A DNA stretch of 41,067 bases, taken from assembly GCA_015272155.1 (NCBI GenBank), contig JACYME010000062.1:1-41067 (forward strand). Reading direction: 5' to 3'. Made by a program: the position numbers and the translations under genes. The stretch's first letter is position 1. Every line of letters begins with the position of its first letter. Positions 15,788-21,637 of this stretch are shown here, in pieces. This stretch comes from Leptolyngbyaceae cyanobacterium T60_A2020_046 (GTDB lineage: Bacteria > Cyanobacteriota > Cyanobacteriia > Phormidesmidales > Phormidesmidaceae). Below the pieces are notes generated by a model. The model ran no database searches, was not told the origin of the DNA, and saw nothing but the letters and a program-made list of their open reading frames with translations.

Positions 15788-16330
15788 ATGACTGCCCCCC
15801 TCCTGCTGACCTCCTTTTCCCCGTGGCGCGCCCACCAGCGATCCAACTCCTCTGATGACTTACTCGCCGGGCTCCACGCCGCGAAAAAATTGCCCGCTAA
15901 TGTCACGCTATTGCGCCAGTTGCCCGTCAACACCCAGCTTGCGGCCTGTCAGGTTATGGCCAAAATTGTCGAAGTTCGGCCAGCGGCAATCATCTGCTGC
16001 GGAATGGCGGAACGGCGATCGCTCCTCAACTTAGAACAGCGCGCCCACCGAGGCAAACAGTTCCTCGACACGGCCCTCGATCTCCCCAGCATCCTGCCCC
16101 ACACCCGCTGGACAACCATCAGCCATGATGCGGGTAGCTTCGTGTGCAACGCCCTCTACTACGCCCTGCTTGATTTTCTCAATACTCAAAGATGGCAAAG
16201 TCAAGGGCTCTTTATCCATGTCCCAGTGCTCCACGCGGGCAACATTCCCTGGATAGAAGATGACTTTTTGCAGGTTCTAGCCCAAATCCAACATCAGACC
16301 CAAGGCTCATCCTTAGCTGTTGCGGCATAG
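15788..16330 (+). CDS. Peptidase C15 (pyroglutamyl-peptidase I)-like protein
   Basis: Pyroglutamyl peptidases remove N-terminal pyroglutamate. The 180-residue protein keeps the family layout: LLTSFSPWRAHQRSNSSDDLL at the start, RQLPVNT, IICCGMAERRSLLNLEQRA, AGSFVCNALYYALLDFL and GLFIHVPVL. The triad equivalents are all present: E83, C120 and H144 (E81, C144, H168 in Bacillus enzymes). It is shorter than the classical enzyme (about 215 residues), with shorter loops between the triad blocks, so substrate range may differ. ATG 15788 begins the conserved block; longer in-frame starts add non-family sequence. No obvious partner genes. Confidence 0.75.
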   Translation: MTAPLLLTSFSPWRAHQRSNSSDDLLAGLHAAKKLPANVTLLRQLPVNTQLAACQVMAKIVEVRPAAIICCGMAERRSLLNLEQRAHRGKQFLDTALDLPSILPHTRWTTISHDAGSFVCNALYYALLDFLNTQRWQSQGLFIHVPVLHAGNIPWIEDDFLQVLAQIQHQTQGSSLAVAA

Positions 16331-16427
16331 CCTGGAGCCATTGCCACAACGATGTCTTGGGCGTTGCCGGGGGATGGGAGTATTCATCCCTGAATTCAGC
16401 GCCGCTTCATGCCTCACCCCATGCACA

Positions 16428-16483
16428 AAAAACGCCCCCCTCCAACGAGAGAGACGTTTCGGCGCGATCGCAGGTTGGAGGGG
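16428..16483 (-). terminator. Terminator of the RRM protein gene
   Basis: A 10-bp perfect stem, CCCCTCCAAC (16437-16446) with GTTGGAGGGG (16474-16483), encloses a 27-base loop. On the minus strand it is followed by GGCGTTTTTTG, a good U-tract. It lies 15 bases beyond the RRM gene stop. Confidence 0.7.
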
Positions 16484-16497
16484 AGTCCAGGCAACCC

Positions 16498-16932
16498 CTA
16501 CGATGACGTCGCTTGAGCGGCCAGCAGCTCTTTTAGCTTGGCCAGATCCTGAGCCCAGCGCGGATCAGGTTGGGCTGCTTCGCTTTCCTGCGTCACAGAC
16601 TTACCCCGATTGCCAGTGTTGCCCTTTGCCTTGCGACGGTTGGAACCATTGTCAGATTCAGGGGCATCCCCCTTTGCCTTCGCACGAGGAAGCGCCTTTT
16701 CAACCTTGAGCTCGCTTTCCTCAAGCTGATAACCGCTGAATTTTTCCACAATGGCATCAGCTTGCTCGTCGGTTTTCACCGTGACGAAACCAAACCCGCG
16801 ACACTTGCCGGTCTTGCGATCAGAGATTAGCTTGATGGAAACGATGTCTTCAGAATGCTCTGAAAATAGCGTTTCCAGCTCACCGCGCTCCATCTCTTTG
16901 GGCAGGTTGCCGACGTAAATGCGTACAGACAT
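16498..16932 (-). CDS. Cyanobacterial RRM RNA-binding protein
   Basis: The 144-residue protein has one RNA recognition motif at about 3-82: RNP2 IYVGNL at 5-10 and RNP1 RGFGFVTV at 45-52. The rest is a charged, glycine/asparagine-rich linker ending in a conserved-looking short helix (DPRWAQDLAKLKELL). This is the cyanobacterial Rbp family, whose members are often cold-induced or target mRNAs to membranes; longer-tailed types such as this one are known, but the specific role here is inference. GAGG lies 9 bases before ATG 16932. Confidence 0.9.
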   Translation of the reverse strand: MSVRIYVGNLPKEMERGELETLFSEHSEDIVSIKLISDRKTGKCRGFGFVTVKTDEQADAIVEKFSGYQLEESELKVEKALPRAKAKGDAPESDNGSNRRKAKGNTGNRGKSVTQESEAAQPDPRWAQDLAKLKELLAAQATSS

Positions 16933-17320
16933 TATAGATACCTCTAACTCAGCGTTTTGTTATCGACGTGGTCTGGGTTTCGACACTGTCATTGAGCGAT
17001 TGGCCCAACGAAAACCCTGGGGCAGCCCGGCGTTGTGCTCAACACGATAACCGGAAAGACTCAGCATCCACAGCCTCTGGCTGACCGAGTGCATCCCTGA
17101 ACCCTTTGTGACTGAAAGCTTTTTGCACTGCCCTCAACTTAACAAAGCTCACCCACAACCTGACTGGCATCGCACGGGGAGGATAACCCCTGAAGCTGAC
17201 CCATGCACCTCGGGGAGACTGAAACCCAAGCCCTGAAATTCAGAGACCATTAACTAAAGTAACACGCACGTTCCGCAAGAACAGTCGAATCCAGATTTTC
17301 CTGAACTCTTGTCACACACA
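16933..17320 (-). other. Upstream region of the RRM gene
   Basis: About 390 non-coding bases lie between the RRM gene start and the terminator at 17321-17355. A possible minus-strand promoter is TTGCGG (near 17276) with TAGTTA 16 bases on, which would give a leader of over 300 bases. Cyanobacterial rbp genes are known for long 5' leaders, but I cannot confirm a leader here. No tRNA, tmRNA or RNase P RNA is recognisable. Confidence 0.35.
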
Positions 17321-17355
17321 AGACAATAAAAACCAGCCGACCTAGGGACGGCTGG
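17321..17355 (-). terminator. Intrinsic terminator
   Basis: On the minus strand, stem CCAGCCG (17355-17349) pairs with CGGCTGG (17339-17333) over a 9-base loop containing CCTAGG, and is followed by TTTTTATTG. It is about 215 bases beyond the M48-like gene stop at 17569, which leaves room for either a long 3' UTR or a separate small transcript. Confidence 0.8.
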
Positions 17356-17466
17356 CGCAACTTGCTGTGTTGAGAGTAGGAGAACCCGATACCTAGGACC
17401 CGTAGGGCCGAAGTGACCGAACTGTACCTGTAGGAATCAGTCACGCTTAGGTGCACTGGAACTCTG
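17322..17466 (-). ncRNA. Candidate small RNA of about 145 nt
   Basis: On the minus strand a promoter-like pair, TTGCAG (17501-17496), 17 bases, TACCTT (17478-17473), is followed by an RNA that would begin near 17466 and end at the terminator at 17321-17355. In between is a hairpin with an 8-bp stem (17413-17444), a small CCC-UAC-GGG hairpin, and a pyrimidine-rich single-stranded stretch at 17382-17365 (CUCCUACUCUCAACACAG). The design of 5' stem-loop, open CU-rich stretch and terminator is like that of Yfr1, but the Yfr1 core ACUCCUCACAC is absent. It could instead be the 3' UTR of the upstream gene. Confidence 0.38.
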
Positions 17467-17568
17467 TTAAGAAAGGTAACATTTTGTCTCGAAGTCTGCA
17501 ACATCGGGGATGGGGTCGAGTAGCCAGTGCGGGTGTCTTTGGGCGATCGCGAGGGCGGGCGATCGCCC

Positions 17569-20121
17569 CTAACCCCGCAGCAGCACCATCATGCCCCACG
17601 CACAAAAGAACACCCCAAGCAGCACTGCAAGCAGGGGATGATTGCTGCGAGCCAGGGTTTTGCCCGATCGCGCCATCACCTCGACATCTATCCACGGGGT
17701 TGCGCCGCGCCGAAACCAGCCTGCGATCGCCAACGGTTGCCCCACGGCATTTGCTGGGTGAGCCGGGTGAGTCAAGAGATTGCCCACTGCCCCCAAAATC
17801 GACAAAAAGTGCAGCTTGACCAGCCCGGTTGAAGTTTGGAGTATCAGGTCTTGCCCCATCCAATTTGCAATGCCACGTCGCCCGAGTAGCGTTCCTTTTA
17901 GACGCACGGGCGTGCTGCTGCTGGGTAGCGTTTGGGGATTCTGAAGCAGGGCAAGGAGGGGCACCTCCCGAAAGAGGTGGGCGGGGGGGATATCGGGAAA
18001 ATAGCGGTTAATGCGGATGAAAATTCCCATCCCCGTCCCCAAGAGCACAGCCCCCCTCAAGACCATTGGGTCGCCATAAAAGGCTCCAAGCTGCCAAATC
18101 CCAAAGGGCGTGGCAATGCCCCCCAGGAACCACAGTAATAGGGCAAAGGCGGCTCCAACGGCTGGGCCTAGGTAGGGGCTGATTTGTAGCAAAAAGAGTC
18201 GAAGCTGAGAGCGATGGCGGGCGGTGACGGTTTCTGGCAATGGCATTTCAGGCTCTAGCCCCCACTGATGGGCAAGTCGGGACAGGGTTAAAAGGCGATC
18301 GCCGAGCAACGGATGGGCATTGTTCACCGTGAGCCAGTGGCGATAGGGGTTGTGGCGTTCCCAACTCAACACTTGAAGGAGATCAGCCTGGCCGTACAGG
18401 CTTCCGGGAGTCAGCGCCGAGGTATGTCCCAGGGGCATCAGCACGTCTAAACTTTCGATCGCGGGATGGGTATGGCCGCTGTGGCTCACGTCTTCAGCCG
18501 TGGCGATCGCAAACTTCAGCAAGGCCCGCACCAAGGCATTGGGGTTGCCCGTCCATGCTGCAGCGTAGCGATCGCTCAAGGGCACCCGCACCCGCGCCAA
18601 GGTGATAGTCACCTTGTGCAGCAGCCAATACAAACTGTAGGCCAGGGCTGAAATCGTCGCCGCGATCGCCCGTAGCCCGCCTGCCCGTCGGCGATCGCCC
18701 CAGGCTGCCCCCTGCCAATAGACCTGATACACCAGTTGAAGTAGCGCCCCCATGCCCGACATCAGCGGCAAGGTGCCCGTTGTGCTGTGGGCCCAGTCGT
18801 AGGCCACGAGTGTTGCCAACTCATCATCCTCAAGCCGATCCAACACGCCGCGACTGACAACCAGCCGCTGCACCTGGGGCAACCAGCCGTAGCTCAACAC
18901 CACCGGAGCTTGAGTCGGCAACACCTTCAGGCTCGGAATGAGGGCCCCCCGCCGCTGGCTCAGTTGGCGTAACAGGCGCACCGTCTCGGGGTGAGTTGTT
19001 TTCAGCGTGTTAACCGACAGCGGCGTTTGTCCGTAGGCACGAGCCAGCAGAATATCCAGCAGCCACGGCGAGGCCAACAGCAGCCCCATGAGGCTAAGGG
19101 CAATCGGCCAGCGATAGTCGCCATACAGCATCCCTGGGTAGGGCAGGGGCAAGAGCGGCTGACGGACGATCAGCCATCCCAGGGCCGACAGTCCGCTATG
19201 AACCAGGCGTTGAATGACCCAAAACAGCGCGATCGCGCTGCCAAGCTGTAGTACCCCGAGCCCCGCAATGGTCACCGCTGGCAGCGCAAAGGCACGGGGT
19301 CGGGGCAGGCGGCCCTGGTTCCGAAAGGCCCAAAACTCTGCCGCAGTCAGCAGATCGGCGGGGGCGGGCTCAGTGGATTCTGATTCGGGGGGGGAATGGG
19401 GGGCAGGCGCGATCGCGGAATTTGGACTATCCCCAGCACTGTCCTTGATGTCTTCGACAGGGGCCGAATCTGCCACCGTCGCATTCAACTGCTCATCGTG
19501 AAAAAGGGAGCTCAGCGCCGGAGTTTCAGCTTCGTTGGCCTGGGGGGATGCCTCTCCTGCGGGTGATTCCTCTGGAGGGGGTTGAGGCATGGGCTCAGGA
19601 CTCGACGCGCGATCGCGGGGTGACTTCAGCGTCAGACTTTCTTGCGGTGGATCCTGCGCTTTCTTGCTGGGCGGCGTTGTCTCCAAGGGGGAAGACGCTG
19701 GCTCAAGGGGCACAAAACCACTGGCATTTTGCACTGCCCCCGTCGCCTCGGGAGCCAAGGGCTGAAAACCCGTCGAAGGTTTTGCCGACGGGGCCGGGAA
19801 AGCTTGAACAGCAGTGAGCTGTGTCAACATCTTTTGTGCCCACTGCCGCACCTGTGTCGAAGAAGACTGACTCAGCGAGCGGCAGTGGTGAATCGCTTCC
19901 GTCGTTTGGCCTTGTTTGGCGTAGGCGCGCACTAGCCCCATCGTGGCTTTCACCTGAATGGTTTTGGGCAATCCCGGACGGTGCTGTAGCGTAGAAAGGG
20001 TGGCGATCGCGTCGGCGTAGGATCTTTGCTGCAACGCATCAAGCCCCGCTGCAAGCTGCGCTTCGGGCGCAGGGCTCGTATCGACAGAGGACGGATCGAA
20101 GCGAGGAGACGACTCTGACAT
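17569..20121 (-). CDS. Large membrane M48-like protein with degenerate zinc motif
   Basis: The 850-residue protein has a helical TPR-like N-terminus (LAAGLDALQQRSYADAIATL), a Pro/Ser/Glu-rich disordered stretch at about 110-260, two hydrophobic blocks at about 280-370, then an M48/HtpX-like region: LRQLSQRRG, APVVLSYGW, VVSRGVLDRLEDDELATLV. Where active M48 enzymes have HExxH this has YDWAH in LVAYDWAHSTTG, and the usual downstream glutamate of ExxxD is serine in PLSDRYAAAWTGNP. A C-terminal domain (RLKGTLLGRRGIANWMGQDL) looks like a small beta-barrel and is followed by a last membrane helix. It is probably not a working zinc protease. ATG 20121 starts the hydrophilic N-terminus; a longer frame to 20223 overlaps the divergent gene. 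Confidence 0.75.
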   Translation of the reverse strand: MSESSPRFDPSSVDTSPAPEAQLAAGLDALQQRSYADAIATLSTLQHRPGLPKTIQVKATMGLVRAYAKQGQTTEAIHHCRSLSQSSSTQVRQWAQKMLTQLTAVQAFPAPSAKPSTGFQPLAPEATGAVQNASGFVPLEPASSPLETTPPSKKAQDPPQESLTLKSPRDRASSPEPMPQPPPEESPAGEASPQANEAETPALSSLFHDEQLNATVADSAPVEDIKDSAGDSPNSAIAPAPHSPPESESTEPAPADLLTAAEFWAFRNQGRLPRPRAFALPAVTIAGLGVLQLGSAIALFWVIQRLVHSGLSALGWLIVRQPLLPLPYPGMLYGDYRWPIALSLMGLLLASPWLLDILLARAYGQTPLSVNTLKTTHPETVRLLRQLSQRRGALIPSLKVLPTQAPVVLSYGWLPQVQRLVVSRGVLDRLEDDELATLVAYDWAHSTTGTLPLMSGMGALLQLVYQVYWQGAAWGDRRRAGGLRAIAATISALAYSLYWLLHKVTITLARVRVPLSDRYAAAWTGNPNALVRALLKFAIATAEDVSHSGHTHPAIESLDVLMPLGHTSALTPGSLYGQADLLQVLSWERHNPYRHWLTVNNAHPLLGDRLLTLSRLAHQWGLEPEMPLPETVTARHRSQLRLFLLQISPYLGPAVGAAFALLLWFLGGIATPFGIWQLGAFYGDPMVLRGAVLLGTGMGIFIRINRYFPDIPPAHLFREVPLLALLQNPQTLPSSSTPVRLKGTLLGRRGIANWMGQDLILQTSTGLVKLHFLSILGAVGNLLTHPAHPANAVGQPLAIAGWFRRGATPWIDVEVMARSGKTLARSNHPLLAVLLGVFFCAWGMMVLLRG

Positions 20122-20164
20122 ACCGCTGACAACCAACGTTGTTTCAAGTCCAGGGTACGCAACT

Positions 20165-21637
20165 TTGCCAGAATTTCGATCTTCTGTGGGCAACAGCATC
20201 GCCCACCATGACAACGCCAGCATTGAGTGGGAAGCCGTTTGGGGACGCTATGGGGCACTCATGGATGACCTGCCCGCCGCGATCGCCGCCGCCCAGCGCC
20301 CCCTTCCCGTCGGGTTTTGGGTCAACCCCCTCAAGGCTCCTGTCGTCCCAGAGACCCTCGCTGCTCTCCGGGCTCTTGGCGTAGACTGCACCTCCATTCC
20401 GTGGATGCCCGGTGCGTTTCGCAGTCTGCACTGGGTAGCTCCGGGGCACACCCTGCCCTTCTTTGCAGGCTGGTGCTATGTCCAAGAGGAAATTGCCATG
20501 ACCGCGATCGCGGCCCTCGATCCACAACCGGGCGATCGCGTACTGGATTTGTGCGCGGCCCCTGGCGGCAAAACCGCCCAAATTGCCCTGCGCGTTGGCG
20601 ATACGGGGTGTGTGCTCGCCAACGAACGCAACCCAGGGCGGATGGCAAGCCTCACCGCAACCATTGCTCGCCTCGGGCTCACCAACGTTATCACCACCCA
20701 GGCCGATGGACGCGAACTGGCTTTGTTACCCGGCAGTTTTGACCGCATTTTGGTAGATGCCCCCTGCTCTGGAGAAGGCACCCTACGGCGACGCAAACAG
20801 CCCAAACCCTGGAACTCGACCCACAGCCAGCGCATTGCTGCTGTCCAGCGGCGTCTCCTTGATCGTGCCCTCACCCTAGTCAAACCCGGCGGCGTGGTGG
20901 TGTATAGCACCTGCACCTTTGCCCCCGAAGAAAATGAAGCCGTCATTGATGCTGTGTTGGGCGATCGCGGCGGGCTCGAATCCTTTGACCTGCCAACCCT
21001 GCATGGACAACCCGGACAAGACCACTGGCAGGGCCAAACCTACCGTGGCGATCTCCGCCATGCCCAGCGCTATTGGCCCCACCTCAACGACACCGGCGGC
21101 TTTTTTGTGGCGCGCATCCGCCGCGCCGATACCCAGATCCCCAACTCGCCGCCCGCACAATCCATTGCCGACCCGCTGGCGATGCCCTGGACACCAACCT
21201 CTCCCCTGCAAGAACTCAGCCGCCGATTTGGTCTGCCCGTCTCCCAGCTCGAAGCGAATAGCCTGTGCTGGACAACCGGACAGCGGCGTCAATGGCTCAC
21301 CTCAGCGCACTGTATTCCCCCCGCAACTCTCGCGCCGCAAACCTTAGGAATTCCCCTCGCGACCCAAACTCCGCGCGGACTTAAGCCCACCACTGCGTTC
21401 TTGCAACGGTTTGGCCCACACATTCAACAAAATCGGGTGATGCTCGATACCCTGACTCAGGTTGAAACCTTTCTCCAGGGGCGATCGCAGGCCCTCGCAT
21501 CCACCGCGATCGCGACGGAGGGCTACGTCCATGTGGGTTACGGCCCGTATCATCTGGGCTGCGGGTGGTATCAGCACAACAGACTCCAGTCTCAAATTCC
21601 CAAAACTCTCCAGTGGGTCAAACCCCAGAAATCGTGA
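20165..21637 (+). CDS. RsmB/RsmF-family RNA 5-methylcytosine methyltransferase
   Basis: The protein, up to 490 residues, belongs to the NOL1/NOP2/Sun family that makes 5-methylcytosine in rRNA or tRNA. It has the SAM loop VLDLCAAPGGKTAQIA (about 127-141), the first conserved cysteine C201 in VDAPCSGEG and the catalytic C250 in YSTCTFAPEENE, then a C-terminal RNA-binding extension as in RsmF/YebU. The order of these domains favours RsmF-like over RsmB, which has an N-terminal NusB domain; the exact target is not known. The start is uncertain: no ATG lies before the conserved RYGALMDD and FWVNPLK, so TTG 20165 or GTG 20186 must be used. Confidence 0.85.
   Translation: MPEFRSSVGNSIAHHDNASIEWEAVWGRYGALMDDLPAAIAAAQRPLPVGFWVNPLKAPVVPETLAALRALGVDCTSIPWMPGAFRSLHWVAPGHTLPFFAGWCYVQEEIAMTAIAALDPQPGDRVLDLCAAPGGKTAQIALRVGDTGCVLANERNPGRMASLTATIARLGLTNVITTQADGRELALLPGSFDRILVDAPCSGEGTLRRRKQPKPWNSTHSQRIAAVQRRLLDRALTLVKPGGVVVYSTCTFAPEENEAVIDAVLGDRGGLESFDLPTLHGQPGQDHWQGQTYRGDLRHAQRYWPHLNDTGGFFVARIRRADTQIPNSPPAQSIADPLAMPWTPTSPLQELSRRFGLPVSQLEANSLCWTTGQRRQWLTSAHCIPPATLAPQTLGIPLATQTPRGLKPTTAFLQRFGPHIQQNRVMLDTLTQVETFLQGRSQALASTAIATEGYVHVGYGPYHLGCGWYQHNRLQSQIPKTLQWVKPQKS

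Follow-up and report, generated by a model that had tools for sequence, protein, structure and literature searches.

A putative M48 pseudopeptidase of cyanobacteria encoded beside an Rbp3-type RNA-binding protein gene

The window analysed here, the whole stretch of 41,067 nucleotides of contig JACYME010000062.1 (G000:C237 in our numbering) from the 4.2 Mb genome of Leptolyngbyaceae cyanobacterium T60_A2020_046, carries on its reverse strand, at 17569..20121, an open frame of 850 residues that starts with an ATG at 20121 (an alternative opening is possible at 20223). We name the pseudo-M48 family of this membrane protein PSE, and we name ACT the active paralogue with the same architecture. On the alignments reported below, PSE is almost certainly a dead peptidase, a homologue of the M48 zinc metallopeptidases in which the metal-binding motif has been lost and the gene has been maintained under selection. 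The new result is the gene order, in which PSE is followed by the gene of an RNA-binding protein of the Rbp3/RbpG type. We tentatively propose that PSE is a catalytically dead HtpX relative in the membrane, acting as a non-proteolytic scaffold for photosynthetic membrane biogenesis in a pathway shared with Rbp3/RbpG. Full-text literature searches of open-licence papers found no pseudo-M48 protein in cyanobacteria.

The loss of the catalytic site can be followed column by column. A reading made earlier from the letters of the window (the sequence-only reading) had taken YDWAH as the replacement of HExxH, and it was right. When the window protein is aligned with the active paralogue of its own genome (G000:C235, which has HELGH) and 11 others, YDWAH stands in the place of the motif (residues 441-445, 18787..18801, reverse strand as for all features of PSE), and the zinc-histidine columns fall on Y441 and H445. 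The first His has become Y441, the base Glu has become D442, and the second His is kept. The same reading had the Glu of the second motif replaced by the serine of PLSDRYAAA, which is a mistake: the third zinc ligand, Glu in 12/12 active rows, is V513 in the window protein (18583..18585), and S516 stands at a column that is Ala in 12/12 active rows. The Asp of ExxxD is retained as D517. The active paralogues read YAHELGH in 12/12 cases and typically SRTREYFADHF, where the window protein reads VAYDWAH and ARVRVPLSDRY.

The larger of our two alignments has 129 rows (103 PSE, 25 ACT-like and one HtpX), left from 141 matches after removal of named fragments and identical sequences. The first His is present in 0/103 PSE rows, and so is the third-ligand Glu; PSE has neither of the two features that mark an M48 zinc metallopeptidase, HExxH and the Glu of ExxxD. 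All three metal ligands are gone in 49 of the 103 rows. Elsewhere in the site the base position is Glu in 65/103 rows, the second His is kept in 54/103, position 517 is Asp in 103/103, and position 518 is Arg in 95/103, while the E442D change of the window protein is seen in a single row (1/103). No HExxH occurs elsewhere in the window protein, and two of the 103 rows have a stray HExxH off the aligned site. A sequence error, which the sequence-only reading had kept in mind, is excluded because relatives in other genomes have the same motif loss, and chance agreement is not an issue, as 103/103 rows concur. That reading had left it open whether the loss is specific to this lineage; it is common to the cyanobacterial orthologous group.

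Homology of the catalytic domain to M48 zinc metallopeptidases is found with the NCBIfam HtpX models, by profile-profile comparison with ACT, and with the solved HtpX fragment 3cqb (E 2.3e-6 for the family profile). The M48/HtpX-like region covers residues ~345-625 (18247..19089), within which the NCBIfam HtpX zinc protease models match residues 375-537 with a best E of 1.6e-12 and a score of 47 bits where the cut-off is 341. The Pfam M48 model has six other matches in the window's genome and none at PSE; it detects 19/22 PSE family members at E 0.01, and the window protein is not among these 19. Like HtpX, PSE has hydrophobic segments both ahead of the domain and inside it; in PSE they lie near 339-354 and, weaker, at 452-462 and 491-498. 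Because the family-mean hydropathy shows about seven hydrophobic segments, of which the two within the peptidase-like region are weak, we infer that PSE is inserted in the membrane. Compared with HtpX and the other M48B membrane zinc proteases, PSE is without HExxH and the third-ligand Glu, and it adds a TPR region, a linker, hydrophobic segments and a C-terminal domain.

The N-terminal TPR-like region (residues ~20-105, 19807..20064) had been described in the sequence-only reading as an added domain; it is weak by Pfam, with E 6e-4 as the best of the window protein's Pfam matches, all of them weak, and strong by family profile, with E 1.1e-17 against a designed TPR protein. A separate 435-residue frame in the same genome (G000:C145) has two stretches that resemble this start. 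A long, poorly conserved linker rich in Pro and Ser (residues 106-264, 19330..19806) comes next. At the other end of the protein, a conserved domain and the last hydrophobic segment occupy residues 726-850 (17572..17946), with the pattern GxLLGRxGxxNxxGQDLxLQT...GWxRRGxxPWxD. There are 70 listed PSE columns with at least 90% identity, and 21 of them fall at 729-850, the final 122 residues; they include G743, N753, Q757, G801, W802, R804, R805, G806 and D812. This domain appears to be confined to PSE and ACT-like frames: in a search of 14 genomes, ten had matches, and 14/14 matches were in such frames. No relative was found amongst PDB sequences at E 10, and Pfam gave for 22 members only weak matches, to bPH_6 in three (best E 0.025), to DUF5818 in two (best 0.0092) and to PEP-CTERM in one. 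The defence-system library gave no match. The sequence-only reading called the domain beta-rich; the domain itself is real and conserved, and its beta-rich character comes from a low-confidence model (pLDDT 47). An OB fold was considered, which the strand-strand-strand-helix-strand-strand order would suit, and was set aside as too weak (two-sequence AlphaFold, pLDDT 47.1). An AlphaFold model of residues 260-850 with one other sequence (L007) reached a pLDDT of 33.6 and was discarded.

A further close relative is ACT. The ACT protein of the window's genome (G000:C235, 608 residues) matches PSE over its C-terminal two thirds, which take in the undescribed domain at the C-terminus, at a profile-profile E of 5e-101; it differs in that HELGH and the Glu of ExxxD are kept, and a Pfam TPR is found in only some ACT members. 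BepA has a TPR domain as well, and it is an active, soluble periplasmic protein with a domain order unlike that of PSE. As a periplasmic protease of the M48 fold, BepA has both an assembly and a degradation role for a membrane protein, according to the parts of the source papers available (PMC7950410, PMC8423444). The cyanobacterial pseudo-orthocaspases, of a protease family unrelated to PSE, are described in the available part of PMC6426788 as presumably inactive protease homologues that have been retained, with a putative role in photosynthesis.

The descent of PSE was examined in two trees, both by a quick method and both rooted on or with HtpX as outgroup. The first alignment consists of stop-to-stop frames from related genomes, from which duplicates and fragments (L003, L007, the second frame of L030, L075, and L076, which is the 435-residue frame above) were removed. 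The tree has 67 rows, excludes the motif columns, and leaves out the other M48 rows of the window's own genome (L001, L004, L005, L006). In it, 51 of the 54 rows labelled PSE group together (SH-aLRT 100), and the 12 active rows make up a second group (99); L054, L056 and L071, which lack the motif, branch within the active side or from its base. In the larger tree, of the 129 rows, ten long-branched PSE rows fall outside the main group, unresolved at the base, and the remaining 93 are united with support 88. Intact and lost motifs account for four changes on this tree, three of them forced by the starred branches. Five active-side rows, L056 (G039), L071 (G057), L054 (G054), L144 (G126) and L146 (G155), have lost all or part of HExxH and ExxxD, and these are apparently further separate losses in cyanobacterial M48 proteins. 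Most PSE rows can be explained by one loss, with separate losses possible for the ten long rows. Judged by these trees, catalysis is lost more than once among cyanobacterial M48 proteins, and descent of PSE from an active M48 peptidase, old within cyanobacteria, is the best explanation.

The selection on PSE was measured as NG86 dN/dS between close relatives, in 14 pairs that are not all independent, since a few share a row. The ratio is 0.10-0.29 over the whole protein, 0.06-0.26 in the peptidase-like region, and 0.17-0.71 in the linker. The PSE family is under purifying selection. The proposal of the sequence-only reading that this is a pseudo-peptidase kept for another purpose is thus supported by the ligand loss in 103/103 rows, by these ratios, and by the conserved C-terminal domain. 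In a phylum sample of 244 cyanobacterial genomes with completeness of at least 90%, the PSE profile has matches in 72 genomes at E 1e-30, and every one of these belongs to the class of the window's genome. Assigning the matches by tree place or relative score in a hand count (G167 by score alone, and with the broken ACT fragment of G116 excluded), we find PSE in 61 genomes, an ACT-like protein in 33 at the same cut-off, and both in 22.

The gene on the same strand downstream of PSE (16498..16932, 144 residues) is for a protein with one RRM and a long C-terminal region that includes PDPRWA, identified by motif and profile. By the available part of PMC9333190, the PDPRWA motif defines type II Rbps such as Rbp3, and we see no difference in this composition between the neighbour gene and Rbp3 of Synechocystis or RbpG of Anabaena. 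It is the only type II Rbp gene found in the window's genome, and the Rbp profile (E 1e-22) has a single match per genome in 116/244 and in 56/59 genomes. The divergent neighbour on the other side (20165..21637, forward strand) is an RsmB/F-type 16S rRNA methyltransferase. The gene order was compared in 103 PSE genomes, a set that is different from the 103 alignment rows and has the same number by coincidence. Rbp is directly downstream of PSE on the same strand, with a gap of 195-1263 bp, in 74 of the 103, which is 74 of the 95 that can be judged; of the rest, six have a contig break and in two the Rbp is unmatched. The adjacency spans 15 of 23 judgeable families, and 33 of the 74 genomes belong to the window's family and 22 to one other.

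When the neighbours of 22 PSE loci (each 10-22 kb, 14 of them outside the window's family) are clustered, the RRM protein is the commonest (17/22), followed by prfC, the gene of release factor 3 (10/22; one copy is named and the remaining ones were assigned through the clustering), and all others are at 7 or less. In those ten loci prfC is upstream of PSE on the same strand, in eight of them at about 2 kb centre to centre. It is the upstream neighbour in L177, L178, L179, L180, L182, L185, L186 and L187, eight of the 14 loci outside the window's family. We read the arrangement prfC-PSE-Rbp as probably inherited from an ancestor and breaking up gradually. In 20 of 20 PSE-less genomes, checked with one prfC query over 6.6-8.5 kb around rbp, mostly upstream, no prfC was found beside rbp, and the comparison yields no example of an otherwise intact block from which PSE alone has gone. 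Past the Rbp gene, crtB (phytoene synthase) is found on the opposite strand in the small PSE-less genomes L211 and L212 and in L177 and L191-L194, with phytoene desaturase beyond it in L177, L191, L211 and L212.

The gap between PSE and Rbp contains a conserved element on the reverse strand (17328..17395), found by alignment, pattern and covariance model, in which a box, GGTTCTCCTACTCTCAACACAGCAA in the window's family, is followed by a stem like that of an intrinsic terminator and a T run. The stem has changes on both sides at four of its eight pairs. The pattern finds the element in 41 of 70 PSE loci with sufficient flank and does not find it in 29, and 36 more loci are too short or cut. A covariance model built from 28 loci, which match it by construction, finds it once each in 50/244 genomes (E 0.001), 44 in the class and six weak ones outside. 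Where PSE and Rbp are apart or not adjacent, the element accompanies Rbp in G053, G095 and G136, and PSE in G078, G120 and G215. In G050, G101, G108 and G281 it is away from both, so it is not bound to these neighbours, and in the PSE-less G105, G129, G165, G238 and G252 it is away from Rbp. Because its position varies relative to both genes, the element behaves as a gene of its own. A protein-coding interpretation was dropped because the reading frames differ between genomes.

Upstream of the element is an HLR1-like site of the RpaB type (17463..17480, reverse strand) with three mismatches to the HLR1 consensus. Sites with at most two mismatches occur in 28/55 such upstream regions against 0.4 expected by base shuffling, a comparison in which the regions are not independent and the site was sought post hoc. 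Predicted pairing of the box with the region around the psaL start and ribosome-binding site is strong in three genomes, all of the window's family: -35.9 kcal/mol in the window's own genome and -42.9 and -32.0 kcal/mol in two others, each with 0/300 controls as good, where the value is the best of several possible starts for one psaL copy per genome and each control has one start. In G052 the pairing is fair, at -28.2 kcal/mol with 5/300 controls, and in seven of the 11 genomes tried no such pairing is seen. The available parts of PMC6202907, PMC12850537 and PMC6091082 describe PsrR1 as a small RNA of 131 nt that belongs to the high-light response, is controlled by RpaB and has psaL as one of its targets. 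With an HLR1-like site, a terminator-like stem and, in the window's family, a candidate psaL pairing, the element is a possible PsrR1-like small RNA. Rfam has no family over 16300-20400, with one match, to a miRNA family, far below its cut-off; and a consensus scan of the gap, over 16850-17700, found no sigma-70 promoter and listed two other terminator-like sites and not the element's own, the loop of which (9) is above the limit of 8. Neither the locus nor the box occurs in the published cyanobacterial small-RNA studies that were searched for both.

By gene order alone, the position of PSE hints at Rbp3/RbpG as its pathway partner. The available passages of PMC11500504 implicate Synechocystis Rbp3 in binding photosynthesis mRNAs and in placing them at the thylakoid, and they report that the Anabaena rbpG null mutant contains less mRNA of psbA, psaA and cpcAB, forms fewer layers of thylakoid and repairs photosystem II less efficiently. 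In the mechanism that we propose, PSE would be a membrane scaffold that cuts nothing. Partners in the cytosol would be recruited through the TPR region and the linker, stretches of nascent membrane proteins would be held or sensed by the dead M48 region, and another task on the membrane side would fall to the conserved C-terminal domain; the setting would be the biogenesis of photosynthetic membrane proteins, in the same pathway as Rbp3/RbpG. We rate this mechanism as somewhat less likely than not, because contacts of PSE with Rbp3, RNA, ribosomes or a substrate are predictions, and because 116/244 genomes have an Rbp3-type gene and only 61 have PSE.

Several observations weigh against the proposed role. 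Rbp occurs without PSE in 55 genomes of the phylum sample. Of the 103 genomes compared for gene order, 16 have PSE and Rbp apart, and five more have them close together without being direct neighbours. Outside the window's family, ten of the 14 loci have prfC nearby and nine have Rbp, so Rbp is not the only gene linked to PSE in this way, and the order of genes in this block is in general slow to change. The location of the mRNAs is unchanged in the Anabaena rbpG null mutant, as the same passages of PMC11500504 report. HLR1-like sites upstream of PSE show no excess (2/73 against 0.85 expected), which leaves no evidence that PSE shares the control of the small RNA. In addition, the peptidase-like region of ACT has a dN/dS of 0.02-0.04 in three of three pairs, with dS saturated, which indicates that the active paralogue is held more tightly than PSE.

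PSE could also be a quality-control chaperone for envelope or membrane proteins that is unrelated to Rbp3, in which case the gene order would persist because the gap houses a small-RNA gene with its promoter, or because rearrangement is slow. The small RNA, with its HLR1-like site upstream in about half of the cases, sometimes accompanies one neighbour or the other, prfC is kept upstream too, and Rbp does without PSE in many genomes, all of which would fit. However, the small RNA leaves both genes in the four genomes named above, and PSE adjoins Rbp in 15 families, at 34-51% protein identity where figures exist. We regard such a chaperone as a serious possibility, if on balance unlikely.

Inactive ClpR and FtsHi subunits are precedents for a regulatory partner of an active protease, and PSE might likewise pair with an active M48 protease of its cell, ACT or HtpX, in a hetero-complex, as a regulator or a decoy. 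PSE has the architecture of ACT, the two share a C-terminal domain seen only in such proteins in the 14 genomes searched, and the window's genome encodes ACT together with further M48 proteins whose HExxH is intact. Against this, 39 of the 61 PSE genomes have no ACT-like protein detectable at E 1e-30, which makes the idea of a partner of ACT weak, and M48 enzymes are not known to be obligate oligomers. We find a partnership of this kind doubtful, so that of the scaffold or regulatory role suggested by the sequence-only reading, the regulator of the active paralogue is the less likely part.

A bolder version of the link to Rbp3 makes PSE the membrane-side docking factor for photosynthesis mRNAs bound by Rbp3/RbpG, a thylakoid receptor for mRNAs or ribosomes, and counts the small RNA of high light that is encoded between the genes as part of the same unit; this we consider quite improbable. 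That PSE is still an enzyme, with an altered metal site or other chemistry in the M48 fold, is very improbable: the base Glu, the second His, Asp517 and R518 persist in the numbers given above, but what remains varies by lineage, close to half of the rows lack every ligand, and the window protein has D442 at the base position. A gene decaying on its way out in the window's lineage, as the rare E442D change and a terminal branch in the larger tree that measures 0.5 where the median is 0.21 might suggest, is scarcely credible given a frame open over 850 codons, purifying selection in relatives, and PSE in 35 of the 36 genomes of the window's family (once as a 126-residue fragment), the exception being 78% complete.

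As a dead peptidase, PSE is a long-standing pseudoprotease that a quarter of the phylum sample carries (61/244) and that automatic annotation likely labels a zinc protease or leaves unnamed. As the tentatively proposed scaffold, it would bear on the delivery of mRNAs to the thylakoid. Under puromycin, psbA mRNA partly stays at the thylakoid, which suggests a factor that targets it to the thylakoid surface independently of ribosomes, unnamed in the available passages of PMC11500504; PSE is a concrete candidate for a partner in that pathway.

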